Shown: positions 12,895-27,732 of the stretch, one piece after another
How the letters are laid out: each line of letters opens with the position of its first letter
Position numbering within the stretch: position 1 is the stretch's first letter
From: an uncultured Methanospirillaceae archaeon
Lineage (GTDB): Archaea; Halobacteriota; Methanomicrobia; Methanomicrobiales; Methanospirillaceae
Reading direction: 5' to 3'
Assembly (NCBI GenBank): GCA_949319355.1
Contig: CASGHA010000136.1
Coordinates: 1 to 32,203 of the forward strand
Length of the DNA: 32,203 nt
Position numbers and translations under genes: made by a program
The notes under the pieces: generated by a model
Told to the model about the DNA's origin: nothing
The model's input: the letters and a program-made list of their open reading frames with translations, nothing else
The model's database searches: none

Positions 12895-14580
12895 TTAATG
12901 GAGTTTCCCCTGTTCCTGACTGTCACCCATCGGTATTATCGCCAGGTCGAACTGGGCCAGGATTGGGGGAAGCAGCCTAATGGCGCTCCGGTCCTTTTCT
13001 TTTTCTGATTCAGGAAGGTCTTCATACGGGATGAGCCATGGGGTCTTTTTCAATTGGACATTCCGTACCGGGCCAATGGTCCAGCCCGCCGCTATCCGCT
13101 CCTCTACCCATCGTTCGTGCTCGATACGGGCGAGCCGTTCGAGGTCTTCCGGGTTGAATGTGTAGAGGGGAATGGTCCAGTCCGAAAGGACTCCAAGCCG
13201 GCATCCAACCGACTCAAGACGTCCAGCTATGGCATCAGCCTGTCTCCTGTTCGATTCCTTCAGACTTTCCGGAAGTTCTTCCCATGGAACGGCTGAGGGG
13301 TTTTCTGCCGGGGTCACGCCGAGTGCAAGCTGCTGGTTAAGGTACCCCTCGTGGATTGCCCGGGCAGTAAGCTCGTGGACATTATCAAAAAGGAGTCTTT
13401 GAGTACATGCCCGTTCCAGGAAGGGGAAAGGTGTGATATTCTGATAAAGCTCGTAACCGGCACCCAGGGTCTTTAAAAATGTCGTGATCCCGTGGCTATG
13501 CCGGGTCCTGATTACCACGGGGACTCTAGTGGTCCCGAGACGCTCCCTGACCGTAACAGCCGCTGAAAGACCCAGGGATTCATCATCGATACAGATGAAA
13601 ATAGCATCCGGTGGATCCGCTCCCTTTGGGATGAAATCGGCCCTGATGAATTCTCCCGAGTCCAGTTTCATATCCTTGGCGTAAATCTCGAACAGTCCCA
13701 GTGTTGCCGGCAGCATCGCCTGCACAAGGTCAACCGCTGCTGTTGCATCAGCGGCGATGACGGTCACCCGGCAGGGCCCGGGTGCCCCGCTGGGCCAGTG
13801 GTCATGCCAGAGCCTGATCGCATGGAGTACCAGACTTTTTCCGAGTCTCCCCGCACCGATAACGACGATATGAAACGAATTGCCCCCTGATACTTTTGCC
13901 GGGACCGGAGTTTCCGCGAGCATGAACGCACCCCCTGTCTGGAACAGGTTGAAAAAATCAAACCTGATCCCGTGACGGCTCCCGAGCCACACCTCGGGTC
14001 CTGTCAGAAGCCGTGTGACCGCTGGCTCCATTATGTGGACGAGACAGGTCAATGCCTCTCCTGTCCTCCGGCCCTCCACGGTATTCCAGGCACGCCCTGC
14101 AATCTCAGCATTTATCCCGTCATCAGTATCTATCGCGATAAGTGCCCTTGCACGGGAGATCCTCGCCTTTCCAAGGAGAGTGGGGGAGGAAGGGCTGCCT
14201 TTTAAGTTGATAATGCCCAGGTGGGAACACCGTTCAGAGAGGCCGGGGTCCTCATCCCTGCAGATCCTGACAACACGCAGACCTGACCTGGAAAGGGCTT
14301 TCACCGTAGCAACAGCCCCCGGGCCGTCTCCACATATCACCAGGTGGTCTTTAAAAAAGAGAAGGTGCAGATGGTGGAGCTGTTCGTATGAAAGGAAAAT
14401 CACAACGAGGAGGAGGGTATAGACCGTGAGCGCACTTAGGATAAACGGGATGTATGTATCGATAAGATAGGCGATGTACAATGCTGCGCATGCAATGCCC
14501 ACCCTGAACAGGTGTTTTCGCAGGGAGGGTGAAAGCAGAGAGGACTCATTTTTATCTGTAAAATTCCCATCGTCAGCCAT
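12895..14580 (-). CDS. Membrane-anchored TrkA-N/Rossmann NAD-binding protein with C-terminal RyR domain(s)
   Basis: 561 aa. Two N-terminal hydrophobic segments, Rossmann motifs LVICGDGPGAVATVKALSRSGLRVVRICRDEDP and IVVIGAGRLGKSLVLHAIRLW, then a RyR signature IEHERWVEERIAAGWTIGPVRNVQLKKTPWLIPYEDLPESEKEKDR preceded by a weaker repeat NVHELTARAIHEGYLNQQLALG..NPSAVPWEELPESLKESNR. Confidence 0.85.
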   Translation of the reverse strand: MADDGNFTDKNESSLLSPSLRKHLFRVGIACAALYIAYLIDTYIPFILSALTVYTLLLVVIFLSYEQLHHLHLLFFKDHLVICGDGPGAVATVKALSRSGLRVVRICRDEDPGLSERCSHLGIINLKGSPSSPTLLGKARISRARALIAIDTDDGINAEIAGRAWNTVEGRRTGEALTCLVHIMEPAVTRLLTGPEVWLGSRHGIRFDFFNLFQTGGAFMLAETPVPAKVSGGNSFHIVVIGAGRLGKSLVLHAIRLWHDHWPSGAPGPCRVTVIAADATAAVDLVQAMLPATLGLFEIYAKDMKLDSGEFIRADFIPKGADPPDAIFICIDDESLGLSAAVTVRERLGTTRVPVVIRTRHSHGITTFLKTLGAGYELYQNITPFPFLERACTQRLLFDNVHELTARAIHEGYLNQQLALGVTPAENPSAVPWEELPESLKESNRRQADAIAGRLESVGCRLGVLSDWTIPLYTFNPEDLERLARIEHERWVEERIAAGWTIGPVRNVQLKKTPWLIPYEDLPESEKEKDRSAIRLLPPILAQFDLAIIPMGDSQEQGKLH

Positions 14581-18321: not shown

Positions 18322-20436
18322 TTAGTGGCATGTGCAGGCTTTAACCTGCAGGAACGGTATAACGGGCGTATCGATGCTGAAGTTCCCGGTGGTAATCATC
18401 CGGACATGGGACCCGGTCACGTTCCGGTACACTGCCGGATAGAGATCCTGGAACGTGATGTTGCGGTCAGCCCTGATTATTTCCATCATATTGACCGTGA
18501 ATTCGTCTGATAGCCATTGCTGGATCTCCGGGTCATAGACCGCACTGAGCGAGGGCTCGTTCTTTGCAGATCCGGTCAGGAAGAGGATTCCGGGCGCCGT
18601 CGTTTCTGCTGCAATGCTCTCCTCGAAGCAGGAATCGACCACGAAGGCGAGCTGGCGGTACCGGTGTCCGCTACTCATCGACCCGGTCACCATTTTCATG
18701 TCTTCCGCGGTGAACGAATCGTCTGGCCGGAAGTTGATCTTTCCCGGCGAACCGTGGCTCACGATGTATACGAAGACGTCCGTGCTGTTGCTGCTCCCGA
18801 GGACGACCGGGGTGGCAGCGGTCCTGTTGCCGGTCAGGACACTGACGAGCGTCCGTGCCGTAACGGCAGGCCCGGTGTAGTCCGCGATAGCCTCAGGCCG
18901 GAGGTTTGGGCCTTTTGGGATGTTGTGGACATCGCCCCGGACAGGGTTCTCAGGGACAGTGGGGATGTCGTCATAGAGCATGAGGATGATATGGTCATCG
19001 GAAACTCCCTCATCCCTCAGCAGGTGGTAGACCGCCAGGGCATCCGACTGGTGCCGGTAGTTCGGCCATCCCTCAGAGGGGCCGACAACCACGGCCATGA
19101 AATCCTCATTTTCTCCAAATGGGACTCCTGATGCGGGTTCTTGTGTAGAAACGGACATCAGGCCGGCCGAGGGTGTGGAGAGCCCGGTGGACCCACCCCC
19201 CGACTTCGAAACGGGATTCACATCCTCCGAACCAAATGTCCTGACCGTCCGGAATGTGCCGTTCTCCACGACCCAGTAGGCGTAATAGGTATACAGCGGG
19301 TCGACCCCGAGGTCCTCATCATATTCAAGGCTGCCGCTGGCGCCGGTAATCCATGGGAGCCTTCCGGCCAGGATCTCCTGGATCGCCGTATGTATACCGG
19401 TCGCGTTCCAGCCGGTGACCCTGCCCTCACCGTACACGACCTTCCGGACCGAGTCAGGAAGGGTTTCGGACTGCGCCCTGTCCTGCCGGGCACTCACGAA
19501 TGAGGCGATCATGAGGGCATCGTATGTCGTTGCCGCATAGTACGCGGGCGCATGACCGAACTTCTGTGTGTAGGCCTCAGTAAACCCGGTCGATGGGTCG
19601 GCTGCAGGATTGGTGCCCTCGATCCCCTCCGCAGCAGGGCCGAGCGCCCCGATCATCTGCGGCGTGGCCGAAGCATCGGCAAGGAACAGCCGTGTCCGGT
19701 TCCCGGAACCTGCCATCGCCCGCCGGATGGTTACTGCATCGTCCGGAAAACCTACAGCGATGAGGTACTCCGGACCGGTTTTCAGGGCCGCTGCAACGTC
19801 ATCTCCCAGCGCTGCCGCCCCCGGCTCGAACCGACCGATATACGTGACATCAATGCCGTACTCGGTTGCAAAAAAACCAGTCCAGTCATAGAACGTCTGT
19901 CCGTAGGTGCTGTTCTCGGCAAGGAGCGCCATCCGGGTCACACCTCTCTCTTTCAGGACAGCCAGGATAGTCTTCACCTGTGCGGCATCGCCCTGCGTGG
20001 TCCGCCAGACATAGCCGGACCTGCCGAACGCCCGGATGATGTCGCCTGAGGTCGCGGTCGGGGTGATGAGGACCTTCTTATTTGCGATGAACGCAGGGGC
20101 AAGCGCATAGACCTCGTCGCTCTTCTGCGGCCCGATAATTATTCGGATCGAATCATCGTTGAGCAGATCCTGCGCAAGCGCTGCCGTGTCGCCTGAGCCC
20201 GTGTCCCGGTACACAAGCTCAACCCGGCGCCCTCCAATCCCACCATCGCTGTTGATGGTATCCTTTGCCCACTCAAGCGGTTCCCTGAACTCAACGTCGC
20301 CGGTAAGGGGGAGGAGGACCCCGATCCTGACCGGGGTGAAGGCACGGATTCCCGATAAACCTGCCCAGGTGCCGGCAAGGACGAGGATGGCGATGAGGAT
20401 GATCAGGCCGACCCGTTTTCTGTTAATGGTAATCAC
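18322..20436 (-). CDS. Fusion of type-1 periplasmic binding (LivJ-like) domain and C13 legumain-like cysteine peptidase domain
   Basis: 704 aa, GTG start, N-terminal TM anchor. PBP1: RIGVLLPLTGDVEFREPLEWAKDTINSDGGIGGRRVELVYRDTGSGDTAALAQDLL..IIIGPQKSDEVYALAPAF. C13-like: NYRHQSDALAVYHLLRDEGVSDDHIILMLYDDIPTVPENPVRGDVHN..DVFVYIVSHGSPGKINF..LAFVVDSCFEESIA. Confidence 0.85.
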   Translation of the reverse strand: MITINRKRVGLIILIAILVLAGTWAGLSGIRAFTPVRIGVLLPLTGDVEFREPLEWAKDTINSDGGIGGRRVELVYRDTGSGDTAALAQDLLNDDSIRIIIGPQKSDEVYALAPAFIANKKVLITPTATSGDIIRAFGRSGYVWRTTQGDAAQVKTILAVLKERGVTRMALLAENSTYGQTFYDWTGFFATEYGIDVTYIGRFEPGAAALGDDVAAALKTGPEYLIAVGFPDDAVTIRRAMAGSGNRTRLFLADASATPQMIGALGPAAEGIEGTNPAADPSTGFTEAYTQKFGHAPAYYAATTYDALMIASFVSARQDRAQSETLPDSVRKVVYGEGRVTGWNATGIHTAIQEILAGRLPWITGASGSLEYDEDLGVDPLYTYYAYWVVENGTFRTVRTFGSEDVNPVSKSGGGSTGLSTPSAGLMSVSTQEPASGVPFGENEDFMAVVVGPSEGWPNYRHQSDALAVYHLLRDEGVSDDHIILMLYDDIPTVPENPVRGDVHNIPKGPNLRPEAIADYTGPAVTARTLVSVLTGNRTAATPVVLGSSNSTDVFVYIVSHGSPGKINFRPDDSFTAEDMKMVTGSMSSGHRYRQLAFVVDSCFEESIAAETTAPGILFLTGSAKNEPSLSAVYDPEIQQWLSDEFTVNMMEIIRADRNITFQDLYPAVYRNVTGSHVRMITTGNFSIDTPVIPFLQVKACTCH

Positions 20437-20825: not shown

Positions 20826-21389
20826 ATGGCAGACACGCCCCCATCCATTGCACACAGGAAACTCGCAATTTTCCTTGTTGTGCTTGCAGTCATTGTAACG
20901 ATCATCGCAGTGGCCTGGTATTTCAAAGTGGAACTCCCACCACAGCAAGCCCTGGATCACGCACCCGTATGGAATAGTGGAGACGGGGGCGTGACGGGTA
21001 CCGGGGCTAATGGTGGTGCAGGTGGTTATGCGGCTTCCGGTGGAAACGGCGGTAACGGTGGTGACGCCGGCGTGACAGGTACCGGAGGTAATGGCGGTAA
21101 CGGGGGTTATGCGGCTTCTGGTGGAAACGGCGGTCAAGGTGGTGACGCCGGCGTGACGGGTACCGGGGGTAATGGTGGTTGAGGTGGTTATTCGGCTTCA
21201 GGAGGAAACGGCGGTAAAGGTGGAGACGACGGCGTGACTGGTACCGGTGGTAATGGAGGACCAGGAGGTTTCACTGGTTCTGGTGGAAACGGCGGTGCCG
21301 TAGGAGACGCCGGCGTGACTGGTACCGGCGGTAATGGCGGTGCCGGTAGTTAGGCAGGTAACGGTGGATACAGCGATTCAATATCATAG
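20826..21389 (+). pseudogene. TM-anchored Gly-rich (PGRS-like) tandem-repeat protein gene, interrupted by in-frame TGA and TAG
   Basis: Starts MADTPPSIAHRKLAIFLVVLAVIVTIIAVAWYFKVELPPQ, then repeats of GDAGVTGTGGNGGNGGYAASGGNGGNG. Stops at TGA 21180-21182; the same frame continues with repeats to TAG 21351-21353 and final TAG 21387-21389. Confidence 0.7.
20979..21389 (+). repeat. Tandem array, 81-bp (27-codon) unit, four full copies plus a partial fifth
   Basis: Units begin at 20979, 21060, 21141, 21222 and 21303, each opening GGN GAC NNN GGC GTG ACN GGT ACC (GDxGVTGT). Confidence 0.93.
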
Positions 21390-22844
21390 CGAAAGGGTCA
21401 GGCTGTTGTGAAGGCCGGACCCGATACCTTTACATTATCCCTACAAACTGCACGATATCTGCCTGCCAGTTTGCTTCACTTTTTTTCAAACCGACGGACC
21501 TAAGTCCCAGTCAACCCCTACTCGTGAAACCCGGTATATAGCGCAATCAATTCCCTTTTTGAAAATAATTGCCAGGAAAATCGGGGATAATTCCTCAAAA
21601 TTCGTTTATTGAATGACTTCTCATGTTTGACACTATGGAAACCAGTTTGTATCGTGAAGAGGCTTATTGGCATCCCAAACATTGAGAGAATCATCAAAAG
21701 ATAATAAGCACCTGTTGAAAGAAGAATATCTGAACACGAAGATTTTGTTTTCTAGCCTTAAAACGTTCAATTCCTCAGGATTGTTTGATTTCTCGATGAA
21801 ATTTCTCAACCTCCCGGGACATTCTTTAGATGATTCATGACGTTCCGGGTTCATGGATAAGAGGGCTGTCCTGTCCCCCACAATACCGGTTCATTTTCGA
21901 CATGAACCATTTTGGACAGTTTTAAATGACCATATCCACAAAGCTGAGCCTTCCATCCCTTTTCAGGAACATCCACCTCTGAAACGGCCTTATAGAAAGA
22001 CAAACCGTGTATTACTTGCCTGTTTAATCTCAACCGGCGGGAAAATGCCGGTTCATCCTTTGGAGGCGTTTTAATTTTTCCCTGATGGGATACTCCCTAT
22101 CGAAAAGAGCGCAATGCGGCTGGAACCCGCGTTCTTTCGTTTATCCAGCATTTCCTGAAAATAATCATTCCTTGTTCTGGTGTCGTGTCCGAGGTCATAT
22201 ACTCTGGAATCCCCAGGAATGATGGAGGTCCCACCAGTCGGGAACGGTATTACCAACCGTATCCCTTTCACCACCCGGGAGTGTTTTCCGCTTCAGGGGG
22301 AGGATACCAGGTCTATCCGGTTTGAATAGGGCTTGTCCGGGGTTGCGGAATACCTGATCAGTAAGCCGTAATCCTTCTCAATCATCGGTAAAGACTCCTG
22401 CCAGAGCACTCCTGTCTTTGAAGAGGACCTCTCAGGAAATCTATTTCTTGAATTACAAGCTGCCTGAATCCATGACCCGGGAATGCAACGGGCTGCTTCG
22501 GTACAAGTACACATCCGATACGAGGCAACGAGAAATAGGAGGTAATCTTTTTCATGATATCGTTGCGGATTCACGAATTATTGCTCCGATTGCATATCCA
22601 ACATCCATAATCGCATTTTAGGCGAAGGATCTTTCGGTAAACCTCGTAAATCCTGCCATTTATTCCGAATACGAAGGGTGTACCTGGTCTGCTGGAAAAC
22701 CGGCGAAATCGGGAAGTTGGAAACCGGTTTCAGTTCTGCGACCCGGATCGGCCGTTATCCGTCTTCCAGACCGCCGCGATCGCAATAGAAGAGATAATGT
22801 AGCTATTCTACACATGGTGAATGAACCAGGAGGCAGAAGGGGGC

Positions 22845-25085
22845 ATGCGTTGGATCAATCCGTTTGCAGTTGTTGCGGGCATTGTGAACCGGTTTCCAGT
22901 CGCAATCCTCGTGGCGATGGTCGCCCTCGCCATCGTGGCAATGATGTTCATGGCGGCGATCCCGCCCTATACGATATCGGACGAGTACATGGACAAGAAC
23001 TCGCCCGAGGGGGTTGTTTTTGACGCCTACAGCGCCCGCTACATGCAGGACACCTACATCCTTTTCATCCATGCGGGGGATGTCACGGACCCGGCACTCC
23101 TCTCTGACCTCCTGATCCTCGAGAACCAGATCCGCCGTATCAACCAGGTCAATTCGACGATTACCATTGCGGATGTGGTTGCGCAGTCCAACGGCGGGGT
23201 AATCCCAGGCACGAGCGCAGAAGTCCGGGCAATCATTGACAGCCTCCCCCCCGACACCAGGCGACAGTTCGTTCCGGACCCACAGACCCTCCTCGGGTAC
23301 ATCGTACTTGACCAGGGGTTGCCGACGGACGCCTCCTTCAAAATTGAACCGGTCGTCGTCAGGACCATCGCGGAGGCCACTCTCCCGCCAGGGGTATCAA
23401 TCGAAGCGACCGGCAATACGCCGCTGAACTACGAGATAGCCGTGTGGATGACGGTCAACTTCATCCTCCTGGTCATCGGAGCGATGGTACTCATGCTCAT
23501 CGTGAAGTACCTCCTCTGGTCCAAGATACGGTACTGGATCCTGCCGGTCGTGCTGCTCACCTTCGGGCTGTTCTATACCTTCGGTGTCATGGGCGTCCTC
23601 GGGATACCAGCAAACGACGGGGCCGTCGCAGCATTCCCCATCCTCCTCGGGCTCGGCATCGACTACGCCGTTCAGTTCCACTCGCGGTTCGACGACGAAT
23701 GCCACGTTCACGACCGCAAGGACGCCCTCTCCCTGACGGTCACCGCGGCAGGTCCTGCAGTCCTTACTGCCCTCGTGGCGACGTCACTCGGGTTCCTGGC
23801 GATGTTCATCAGCCCGATTCCCATGATCCGGACCTTTGCGATGGTCTCCATCATAGGGATAGTCTGCTGCTACCTCACAGCGCTTTTTGGGTTCGGGGCA
23901 TTTGCCCACGTCCTGAAGTACACCCCGAAGCCCCCCGGGGACTCTATCGCCGACCGTATCATGACTTTCTATGATACGGGTCTTACGGCGATCTCATCGG
24001 GGGTGGTGAAAATTGCCGTCCCGATCGTGATCATCTCGATACTCGTTGCAATGGTAGGGATCTCGCTCGACCACGGCATTCCGGTCGATGCTTCACAACA
24101 GTCGCTTGCACCTTCAGACATGCCGGCGGTGGTCACTGCGGACAAGGTCGAGTCGATTGCAGGATCACTCACTCCTCTGCCGCTCTATGTCCAGGGCCTC
24201 GACCCCCGGACCATACCAGGGATCAAATGGACCGACCGCTTGTGCGGTCTCCTGGAGAAAAACTATGATAAAATCTCCAGCATCGACAGCATGTCATCCA
24301 TCGTCCGATCGCACAACAACGGAGTCCTCCCTGAAAACCAGGCAGAACTCGACCGCGTGCTCGCGTCCATCCCGCCAGACCAGCTCCATACCTACCAGGT
24401 CGATGATACCACCTCGATCATCATGATCAATACGCTTGCGATGGAGATCGACGAACAGGTCGCCTTTTCAGACAACGTTGAGCGGGATATCGCCTGGCTC
24501 GGGCCACCCCCCGGGGCAATGGTCACCCCGACCGGGTCCTTTACCCTTTACACCATCCTCACCAAGCAGGTGATCGAAAACAAGGACCAGATGACATTTC
24601 TCGGGTTTGTCCTGATATTTGTCTTCCTGCTGCTCGTATACCGGAAGGGGATTGCCCTGACGCCGCTTGTCCCGATCATCTGCGTTATCGGCTGGAACCC
24701 GATCGCAATGATCCTGCTCGGGCAGAGCTACAGCATCCTGACCGCGGTCCTTGGTTCGATGACGATAGGGATCGGGTCGGAATACACAATCCTCATCATG
24801 GAGCGGTATCTCGAGGAGTTCCAGGAGTCCCATGACCGGATAGAGGCGATGAAGCGGGCGGTCCGGAAAGTCGGCACCGCGGTCACGGTGTCAGGGCTCG
24901 TTACCGCGGCAGGCTTTTCCGCACTCATGATGTCGTCCTTCCCGATCCTCTCCGGGTTCGGGCTTGCAACGGTGGTCGTGGTCATACTCTCGCTGGTAAG
25001 CGCGGTCGTGGTGATGCCTGCGACCCTCGTACTCGCCAGCCGGTTCGGAGCGGCAAAATCCACTCCTGAACCCTCAAAAATGTGA
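22845..25085 (+). CDS. RND superfamily (HAE3/MMPL-type) permease
   Basis: ORF 22821..25085; the Met at 22845 is preceded by an AGGAGG-like RBS. Two duplicated RND halves with membrane segments, GLGIDYAVQFHSRFDDE and SMTIGIGSEYTILIMERYLEE. Confidence 0.9.
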   Translation: MRWINPFAVVAGIVNRFPVAILVAMVALAIVAMMFMAAIPPYTISDEYMDKNSPEGVVFDAYSARYMQDTYILFIHAGDVTDPALLSDLLILENQIRRINQVNSTITIADVVAQSNGGVIPGTSAEVRAIIDSLPPDTRRQFVPDPQTLLGYIVLDQGLPTDASFKIEPVVVRTIAEATLPPGVSIEATGNTPLNYEIAVWMTVNFILLVIGAMVLMLIVKYLLWSKIRYWILPVVLLTFGLFYTFGVMGVLGIPANDGAVAAFPILLGLGIDYAVQFHSRFDDECHVHDRKDALSLTVTAAGPAVLTALVATSLGFLAMFISPIPMIRTFAMVSIIGIVCCYLTALFGFGAFAHVLKYTPKPPGDSIADRIMTFYDTGLTAISSGVVKIAVPIVIISILVAMVGISLDHGIPVDASQQSLAPSDMPAVVTADKVESIAGSLTPLPLYVQGLDPRTIPGIKWTDRLCGLLEKNYDKISSIDSMSSIVRSHNNGVLPENQAELDRVLASIPPDQLHTYQVDDTTSIIMINTLAMEIDEQVAFSDNVERDIAWLGPPPGAMVTPTGSFTLYTILTKQVIENKDQMTFLGFVLIFVFLLLVYRKGIALTPLVPIICVIGWNPIAMILLGQSYSILTAVLGSMTIGIGSEYTILIMERYLEEFQESHDRIEAMKRAVRKVGTAVTVSGLVTAAGFSALMMSSFPILSGFGLATVVVVILSLVSAVVVMPATLVLASRFGAAKSTPEPSKM

Positions 25086-25090
25086 ATCTT

Positions 25091-26419
25091 TTATTCTTTC
25101 CTGAATTTTCGCCCGAGCGACCACCCGGCATATGCGAGAATGGCGACGATACCCACGAGTGCAATCATGAGCGGCCGGTTCCCGGTGACTGCCTCGGTGC
25201 CTTCGGGTGACTGGACGCTGACCCCGAGGCTCGCCCTGTCAGAGAGCATCTGGGCTCCGAGTCCGTCACGGTATTTCACCTCGGTATCAAGCGGGTACTG
25301 TTTCCCTGTTATCGCCGATTTTGCAGAAATTTCAAACTGTACGGTCCGTGTTTCACCGGGCCCGAGAAACCCGAGCACGGCAGTGTCTTTTGCAGGCACG
25401 ATGAGATGGCTGCCGATGATCTTTGCCTCGGCTTCTGCTGCAGGGGAATCCCCTGTATTCGTGTAGGAAACATTGACGGTGGCCGATTCACCCGGGTGTA
25501 TCACGATACCGGGGCTGTCCACCTTAAATTCGGCTCCTTTTGCCACCTTTATGCCGACCGGGACGGAAGGAGTGTTCCGGGTGCTGCCATCGCTCTCCCG
25601 ATATGTCCCCTGGAGGACAGCGGGATACAACCCGGCCTCGGTGTGGTCTTTCACGGCGATTCTCACCCGTATCGGTGTAGTCGCCCCCGGTTCGAGCCGG
25701 TCGATATACGTGCTCCCTTCAACGACCCTGAACGTCACGTTGTCGAACGGGACAATGGTAAAAGTGACCTCGCTTCCCGTCTCATGGCCGACATTTTTCA
25801 CCTCGCCGGCCAGGTATCCCTGGGTCCCGGGGACGAGGTTTTCCTGCGTCAGGTTGAGGAGAATCGGCCTGACCTCAGGCCTGATAGTGATCCCGACCGG
25901 GACGGTCACTGCCCTTTCGCGGTAGAGCGGCTGGACCGTTGACCGTCCTTCTCCTGTCAGGGGTATCGCGTAGACGTACCGGTACTCAAGGCTCAAGAGG
26001 ATGGCATGGGACCCTGGGAGGGCTTTCTCGTCAACGGTCCCGCTAATAGTGAACGGGACCTTGGCGCCAACCCCGATATCACCGAGCAGGACCGGAGGAC
26101 TTTCGACGGTGACCGGTGCACCGGACTCCAGGGGGCTCATGACGACCCCGAGTGCCGTTCGTGGGTCGTAGGTGTCGGGGGGAAGGAGCGGGGCTACCTT
26201 AACCTTGGTGTCCTGGTCCTTGTTTGTCAGGACGACGGTCATGGCGAAGGTGTCGCCAGGGTAATACCGGGGGTCACTCACGACGTGTGCCGAGAGGTCC
26301 GGCTCGAGACCCGGGTCATAGATATACCCGAGAGCGGTGCAGGGAGCCGCCGTCAGGGTGATGCAGAGGAGGAACGCAGCCATGAGGCAGGTGCAGCGCA
26401 GTAATGCGGGATAGATCAT
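25091..26419 (-). CDS. COG1361/CARDB-like extracellular beta-sandwich protein with C-terminal TM anchor
   Basis: 442 aa with signal peptide, repeated NEW3/CARDB-like domains (LVPGTQGYLAGEVKNVGHETGSEVTF, IHPGESATVNVSYTNTGDSPAAEAEAKI) and a C-terminal TM (LMIALVGIVAILAYAGWSLGRKFRKE). Confidence 0.82.
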   Translation of the reverse strand: MIYPALLRCTCLMAAFLLCITLTAAPCTALGYIYDPGLEPDLSAHVVSDPRYYPGDTFAMTVVLTNKDQDTKVKVAPLLPPDTYDPRTALGVVMSPLESGAPVTVESPPVLLGDIGVGAKVPFTISGTVDEKALPGSHAILLSLEYRYVYAIPLTGEGRSTVQPLYRERAVTVPVGITIRPEVRPILLNLTQENLVPGTQGYLAGEVKNVGHETGSEVTFTIVPFDNVTFRVVEGSTYIDRLEPGATTPIRVRIAVKDHTEAGLYPAVLQGTYRESDGSTRNTPSVPVGIKVAKGAEFKVDSPGIVIHPGESATVNVSYTNTGDSPAAEAEAKIIGSHLIVPAKDTAVLGFLGPGETRTVQFEISAKSAITGKQYPLDTEVKYRDGLGAQMLSDRASLGVSVQSPEGTEAVTGNRPLMIALVGIVAILAYAGWSLGRKFRKE

Positions 26420-27732
26420 GGCGCCTTGCCTTGGGACCCTGTCGTCTTCTTCCGGCGGTACCAGAGGAGCGCACCCCCCGCGATGATGAGTATCACCAGG
26501 ACCACCCCGGCTATCCCGGGTGCCGGATCAGCCTGGACGTCGATCGGCACCGGTATGTTGTCGGAGGTGTACACCGTTCCCCTCTCATCGGTGTACTGCA
26601 CCTCGGAGTCTGCCGAATAGCTCTTGACCATGGCACTGCCATCGGTTTTCACGCTGAATACCGCTGTAGCTGACTCCCCGGGGCTGAGGTCACCAAGGTA
26701 GGCGGTGTCGTCATCGCTCGAAAACGGGTTGATGACGCTGATACGGGCCTTCGCATTGTAGACCTTCGCGTTTCCGGCATTCCTGTACGTAACTTTCACG
26801 GGGAGTTTCGAGCCGGGACTGACGACCGAGGACGTGTTCACCTGTTCGAACACAATCTTGTCCTGGAACGATACTCCGGCGGTGACCGGGGGTGAGGTCG
26901 CGGCAGCGCCCCTGAAGTCTTTATAAACCGCGTAGAGGGACACAGGATATGAAATCACCGGGGCTGCCTCGCCCGATACCGCGACCTTGAAACCCGGCTG
27001 GATGGTACTTCCGGGAGGGAAGTCCCCGATATAGACACTGTTGCTGAACGGAACAATCGGACTCGCACCTGCGGGGACAAGGAAGAGCGACGTGCCAGTC
27101 CCTGTGTCCTGGCCGGTGTTCCTGATGGTAAAGGTGATGACCCCTTCCTTTCCCGCATAGAGGTCAGAACTTTCGACCTTTTCAACGGTGAGGACCACCA
27201 TCCGCCTTATTTTTACCGGCACCGGAAGGACGGTGTCATCCTCCTTGAAATAGTACTCCATGTCGGCGGTCCCCTGCTGCTCGACCCGGGGCACATAACT
27301 GTAATTAATCCTGGCAAACATCGTGTAGTTGCCAGCCGGGGCAGACTCCGGTACATCGACCGTGAAGGTCGCAGGGACGAGCTGTCCGGCCTTGACGTCC
27401 CCGATGATCTGGGGGTTGGACCGCACCAGCACCGGCGAATCCCCGGGGAGGAGCCCGATGATGGCGGACCGGGCGGTGGTGGGGGGGTACATGGGGTCTA
27501 TCGAGAGGTAATTGTGGAACTCCATCGTGACGGTGCCCTTGTTCCCAATGGTGACCGGGAGCTCGGTGGTCGCCCCGGGGACCAGTTCAGAGGTCGATCC
27601 GAGGGAGACAAAAAGATCGGGCCCGCCCGAGAGGTAGCGCTCCCCTGCCAGACAGGGGGATATCAATAGTCCAATCCCGATACATGCTATGAATATCCCC
27701 GTCATGAATCCCGTTCTATCCATCCAGATCAT
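26416..27732 (-). CDS. COG1361/CARDB-like extracellular protein, paralogue of the downstream gene
   Basis: 438 aa with signal peptide, repeats such as LYAGKEGVITFTIRNTGQDTGTGTSLF and VSPGSKLPVKVTYRNAGNAKVYNAKARI, and a C-terminal TM plus RRKK. 4-nt ATGA overlap with the next gene. Confidence 0.82.
   Translation of the reverse strand: MIWMDRTGFMTGIFIACIGIGLLISPCLAGERYLSGGPDLFVSLGSTSELVPGATTELPVTIGNKGTVTMEFHNYLSIDPMYPPTTARSAIIGLLPGDSPVLVRSNPQIIGDVKAGQLVPATFTVDVPESAPAGNYTMFARINYSYVPRVEQQGTADMEYYFKEDDTVLPVPVKIRRMVVLTVEKVESSDLYAGKEGVITFTIRNTGQDTGTGTSLFLVPAGASPIVPFSNSVYIGDFPPGSTIQPGFKVAVSGEAAPVISYPVSLYAVYKDFRGAAATSPPVTAGVSFQDKIVFEQVNTSSVVSPGSKLPVKVTYRNAGNAKVYNAKARISVINPFSSDDDTAYLGDLSPGESATAVFSVKTDGSAMVKSYSADSEVQYTDERGTVYTSDNIPVPIDVQADPAPGIAGVVLVILIIAGGALLWYRRKKTTGSQGKAP

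Follow-up and report, generated by a model that had tools for sequence, protein, structure and literature searches.

The stretch of archaeal DNA analysed here (32,203 nucleotides, referred to as the window) carries a gene that joins a type-1 solute-binding protein (SBP) domain to the catalytic domain of a legumain-family (C13) peptidase. On balance, and with confidence only just better than even, we read its product as a surface-anchored, Asn/Asp-specific hydrolase that is targeted or gated by its amino-acid-type SBP domain. The ligand gating of the protease and the identity of its client proteins are speculative parts of this reading. The SBP-C13 fusion family is apparently undescribed and prokaryotic legumains in general appear to be little studied, as the literature searched (subscription journals and preprints lay outside the search) contained only passing mentions of C13 peptidases in archaea and bacteria.

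Architecture of the fusion protein

A preliminary description of the window had reported an uninterrupted open reading frame of 704 aa combining a membrane-anchored periplasmic-binding domain with a legumain-like region. Its coordinates were right; the strand, which had been left unstated, is minus (Table 1). The GTG start is backed by relatives, the N-termini of which (MITINRK or MIPIERK) open at the same point. The order of the domains is signal anchor, type-1 SBP and full legumain-family catalytic domain.

Table 1. Features of the SBP-C13 fusion gene and its product, in window coordinates. Row counts refer to the alignment of 74 full-length sequences.
Feature	Position	Strand	Remarks
SBP-C13 fusion gene	18322..20436	minus	704 aa, GTG start; start point common to relatives
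N-terminal membrane anchor, residues 6-33	20338..20421	minus	AlphaFold helix 6-33; basic N-terminus, then hydrophobic stretch
Type-1 periplasmic-binding (HAAT/LivK-like) domain, residues 35-405	19222..20334	minus	PF13458 match; LivK 3td9 fold; pocket mapping
Linker, residues 406-444	19105..19221	minus	Gly/Ser/Thr, low-complexity; low pLDDT; variable across family
Peptidase_C13 (legumain-type) catalytic domain, residues 445-690	18367..19104	minus	PF01650; human legumain fold; no C-terminal LSAM prodomain
N459-Y460-R461-H462	19051..19062	minus	Asn42-equivalent catalytic Asn and S1 Arg44/His45; N in 73/74 rows, Y/R/H in 74/74
Catalytic His561, after Ser560 (legumain Asp147 position)	18754..18756	minus	74/74 rows
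Catalytic Cys603	18628..18630	minus	73/74 rows
S629, equivalent of legumain S1 Ser216	18550..18552	minus	74/74 rows
D644, equivalent of legumain S1 Asp231	18505..18507	minus	D in 37, N in 37 of 74 rows

An AlphaFold model calculated from 30 family members reached a mean pLDDT of 89.9 and a pTM of 0.87, low confidence being confined mainly to the linker and the C-terminal end. The helix that it places at the N-terminus, together with the basic residues there, fits the transmembrane anchor of the preliminary description. The protein is predicted to be inserted in the membrane by this anchor with both domains being extracellular, and we infer a location on the cell surface. Many of the bacterial members look like lipoproteins from their N-termini.

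The C13 domain carries the catalytic set of legumain

Pfam Peptidase_C13 (PF01650) matched residues 448-680 with an E-value of 4.3e-50 (171.1 bits against a cut-off of 22.8), and a PDB sequence search with the fusion protein matched legumains at 1e-32. When the model was compared with the PDB by Foldseek, human legumain (7fqh) was retrieved with a TM(target) score of 0.91 and an rmsd of 1.8 Å. In the alignment with legumain H561 corresponds to His148, C603 to Cys189, N459 to Asn42, R461 to Arg44, H462 to His45, S629 to Ser216 and D644 to Asp231. The S1 pocket of legumain consists of Arg44, His45, Ser216 and Asp231 (PMC4357240), and the roles of the Asn42-type catalytic Asn and of Arg44/His45 in that enzyme have been described (PMC4357240, PMC8491156). 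Conservation was counted in 74 aligned full-length rows, i.e. the window protein and 73 further loci; the catalytic His and Cys, which had been reported as retained, are near-invariant (Table 1), and E627 is kept in 73 of the rows.

Sequence and fold place the fusion protein in peptidase family C13, yet it is not legumain proper because the prodomain is missing: the chain ends about 15 residues past the catalytic domain, lacking the C-terminal activation peptide/LSAM region that controls and stabilises legumain (PMC4357240), and has an N-terminal SBP domain and anchor instead. From the catalytic residues and the conservation of the S1 pocket, catalysis is strongly predicted for the C13 domain, which would be an Asn/Asp hydrolase cutting after Asn or Asp in surface or extracellular proteins.

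Another difference from legumain concerns ligation, as Asp147, Glu190 and Ser215 of the human enzyme are replaced by Ser560, Phe604 and Pro628 in the window protein. The Ser in front of the catalytic His had already been pointed out in the preliminary description. In human legumain the corresponding substitution, D147S, leaves protease activity wild-type-like while transpeptidation is much reduced, and Glu190 and Ser215 likewise regulate ligation (PMC8491156). Since these ligase-favouring residues are replaced, a hydrolase rather than a ligase is expected. The C13 family does include GPI transamidase and ligases and the enzyme is predicted to reside on the surface, so that a GPI8- or sortase-like transamidase joining surface proteins to an anchor might be considered, but with all three ligase-favouring positions changed we regard this as improbable.

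The SBP domain resembles amino-acid receptors

Pfam Peripla_BP_6 (PF13458) matched residues 35-310 with an E-value of 5.3e-35 (122 bits against a cut-off of 31.7), LivK-type SBPs were matched at 1e-15 in the PDB sequence search, and the Foldseek comparison with the PDB gave the LivK-like structure 3td9 with a TM(target) score of 0.79. Both domains named in the preliminary description are thus supported by sequence profiles and by the model. The amino-acid ligand of LivJ is contacted by residues that we take to be Ser79, Thr102, Tyr150, Tyr202 and Glu226. Aligned to LivJ-type proteins, the window SBP domain retains the pocket equivalents S106, T127/A128/T129, Y178 and D254. Across the 74 rows S106 (Ser79 position) is kept in 92%, T129 (Thr102) is Thr or Ser in 97%, Y178 (Tyr150) is kept in 89% and D254 (Glu226, with Asp for Glu) in 96%, whereas the equivalent of Tyr202 varies. 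The domain belongs to the family of the HAAT receptors LivJ and LivK and would share most amino-acid pocket positions with them, and because these residues are kept an amino-acid-type ligand is predicted for it.

A different role is conceivable, in which the SBP domain would be a recruitment or scaffold module that docks substrate proteins or a partner SBP and would not work as an on/off switch for a small ligand. The loss of the Tyr202 position fits such a role; conservation of the other pocket residues at about 90% or more across several phyla is, however, not readily accounted for if the domain is just a scaffold, and we consider this role rather unlikely, though it is the alternative that we take most seriously.

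The fusion is widespread and under purifying selection

PF01650 matches were found in 35 of 232 Methanomicrobiales genomes. Strong matches (E below 1e-41) numbered 33, in 30 of the genomes, and 29 of these 33 lie in frames of 672-760 aa; the other four comprise two at contig starts (G164 and G190), one with a frame-broken SBP part (G191) and one from which most of the SBP is missing (G158). A weaker C13-like group in the same order (E 1e-14 to 1e-4) has larger frames and another architecture, e.g. in G218 and G213. In an even, phylum-wide sample of 394 genomes strong C13 matches were confined to Methanomicrobiales.

Two short patterns, run against 84,980 species genomes, yielded 276 loci. The best 80 of these belong to Methanomicrobiales, Bacteroidota, Spirochaetota, Fibrobacterota, Myxococcota/deltaproteobacteria, Actinomycetota and single bins of other groups, and nearly all of them are full-length and collinear; the two-domain order is the same in all 74 aligned rows, which represent many phyla, a recurrence that chance could not nearly explain. 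In a sample of 198 Bacteroidales genomes all three strong C13 matches lie in frames of 700-782 aa. The fusion, initially presented as that of an archaeon, is indeed present there but is not peculiar to archaea, and the taxonomic survey that had been suggested at the outset finds it in some 30 of the 232 genomes of Methanomicrobiales as well as in several bacterial phyla. In the groups sampled, legumain-grade C13 domains are hardly ever seen without an amino-acid-type receptor fused to them. The family tree largely follows phylum, with seven label changes where the minimum is six.

Close pairs of fusion genes gave dN/dS values of 0.15-0.23, i.e. the fusion is under purifying selection. Near the window clade two copies are damaged: in G158 (locus L119) the C13 frame is intact with most of the SBP missing, and in G191 (L118) the SBP is frame-broken. 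As G158 keeps the C13 domain without most of the SBP, the SBP may be dispensable or this copy may be decaying. For the family as a whole, a dead or decaying protein is extremely improbable, despite these two copies from the nearest clade, because the catalytic and S1 residues are near-invariant and dN/dS is near 0.2; a catalytically dead enzyme was rejected on the same evidence. An assembly chimera of two genes, the possibility of which had been raised in the preliminary description, is equally improbable as an explanation and was rejected, since the same fusion recurs in dozens of independent assemblies, including those of the cultured Methanocalculus taiwanensis and Methanospirillum stamsii.

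The SBP domain does not serve a transporter in several genomes

No ABC permease or ATPase gene is adjacent to the window gene, in agreement with the preliminary description. We searched for PF02653, the permease family of both HAAT and Bmp receptors, which was detected in 12 of 14 control genomes. No PF02653 permease scored above threshold in eight fusion-bearing genomes (G192, G193, G194, G166, G201, G213, G019 and G110), one of which, G192, carries two copies of the fusion. The window's own genome contains one PF02653 permease pair, on another contig, and such permeases also occur in G158, G195, G165 and G197, elsewhere in the genome.

With no permease above threshold in these eight genomes, the SBP does not act as an ABC receptor there, and in much of Methanomicrobiales it cannot serve a LIV-type transporter. 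Unlike LivJ and LivK, it is tethered to a protease and has no cognate permease in its vicinity. Its membership of the HAAT/LivK group and the permeases encoded elsewhere in five genomes would suit an ABC-transporter receptor to which an accessory protease has been joined to provide amino acids for import. The eight genomes, G192 with its two copies among them, speak against this and make it very improbable, consistent with the earlier proposal that the binding domain is not part of a transporter. Since the SBP domain does not serve an ABC transporter, we read it as a putative sensor or targeting module that would gate or steer the protease. In the hydrolase reading favoured here it would stand in, as a regulator, for the C-terminal prodomain that legumain has and the fusion protein lacks.

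A second SBP gene accompanies many of the fusion genes

Clustering of neighbouring genes produced one recurrent gene, encoding a Bmp/PnrA-like SBP (PF02608; E 8e-44 for the archaeal partner, weaker in some bacteria). It lies on the same strand as the fusion gene, on the downstream side in archaea but in most bacteria on the upstream side, and usually overlaps it, by exactly four bases in 15 loci. A sensitive profile search found this partner in 13 of 30 Methanomicrobiales loci and in 33 of 60 other loci. In six more of the 30, comprising all six Methanospirillum-type loci, a second Peripla_BP_6 protein takes the place of Bmp. A second SBP gene is thus present at roughly half of the loci. Pairwise identities of SBP and partner are correlated (Spearman about 0.8), some of which is accounted for by shared ancestry alone. 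The archaeal partner belongs to the same family as the usual Bmp/PnrA proteins and differs from them in that its gene overlaps, or is fused to, an SBP gene and that several of the genomes have no PF02653 permease above threshold.

In about 20 Methanomicrobiales genomes open frames are long enough for a fused Bmp. The three that were read (L131 in G047, L132 in G201 and L133 in G078) encode single chains of 720-840 aa, composed of Peripla_BP_6 and Bmp without a protease, with an SBP 40-42% identical to that of the window and a Bmp 35-39% identical to the partner. Judged by sequence, these fusions link the two receptor types. Every partner seen is itself an SBP, and this, together with the protease-free fusions, fits an SBP-SBP complex as expected if the SBP domain docks proteins. 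If the SBP domain acts as a sensor, as we prefer, the second, co-translated SBP would complete the sensing unit in much of the family.

In the window's lineage this partner is missing from the locus. No partner SBP was found at the window locus or in the window's own genome (78% complete), indicating that the two-SBP arrangement is not required in this lineage, and no Bmp remnant adjoins the window gene. As the nearest relatives (L006, L007, L011, L014, L016 and L017) also have no partner and a decayed Bmp remnant lies beside the G181 copy (L130), the partner is either optional or has been lost more than once. Elsewhere, Bmp proteins adjoin Cache-domain (sCache_2/dCache_2) sensor proteins (L137:3574-6032 and L138:2976-5387).

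Candidate clients in bacterial operons

In Bacteroidales and Treponema the same-strand neighbours of the fusion gene include MACPF lipoproteins as the commonest family (12 of 71 neighbours scanned, a biased frequency as some of the 71 had been pre-selected by clustering), and also BACON-domain and LIP-like lipoproteins. The perforin-like MACPF lipoproteins were seen in the SBP-C13 operons L076, L083, L102, L103, L106, L108 and L109. In six genomes with MACPF matches, all ten lie on the SBP-C13 contigs and within the SBP-C13 loci, as far as coordinates were matched. The MACPF context may serve as a lead to substrates and is not evidence on the archaeal gene. In the preliminary description, the domains, the anchoring and the non-transporter role have held up, while the second SBP genes and the MACPF lipoproteins of the bacterial operons had been missed.

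A bolder idea, which we put forward tentatively and consider unlikely as a whole, is that two co-translated extracellular SBPs, one of them carrying the legumain protease, form a ligand-controlled surface 'shedase' or activator of neighbouring surface proteins, the clients of which would include MACPF pore-forming lipoproteins in Bacteroidales and Treponema. If true, such a module, spanning Archaea and Bacteria and absent from the papers searched, would represent prokaryotic protease-coupled receptor signalling without a transporter or a kinase. In Bacteroides, surface proteins that include an antibacterial toxin are activated or released by fragipain, a C11 protease, and its relatives (PMC9308784). 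These surface lipoprotein proteases belong to clan CD like the fusion, an analogy only, as fragipain is a C11 and not a C13 peptidase, has Arg/Lys and not Asn/Asp specificity and possesses no SBP domain.

Should the gating be real, the fusion would be a protease-linked receptor of Archaea and gut bacteria that is testable in cultured hosts. It would also constitute a new way of regulating a clan CD protease, in which an SBP replaces the prodomain, and a candidate for the enzyme that processes some of the MACPF proteins in gut bacteria.

Further genes in the window

No conserved neighbours were found in the window's own subclade. The window protein had no PADLOC match to anti-phage defence systems, no match in phages and no NCBIfam model above cut-off, and a Bacteroides homologue had no match in plasmids. 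On the minus strand, positions 12895-14580 encode a protein with a TrkA_N and a RyR (ryanodine receptor) domain and N-terminal membrane segments. The plus-strand segment 20826-21350 includes an ORF of 118 aa, the short product of which has a membrane segment at its N-terminus and repeats rich in glycine and asparagine. The repeats run on in frame past a TGA (about 21180) as far as a TAG (near 21350), so that this is perhaps a surface repeat protein that has been broken. It is separated from an MMPL gene by some 1.4 kb (21400-22800) without a convincing gene. The region 22821-27732 encodes an MMPL/RND-type transporter beside two secreted CARDB/NEW3-like proteins that carry membrane segments at their C-termini, likely a surface export set.
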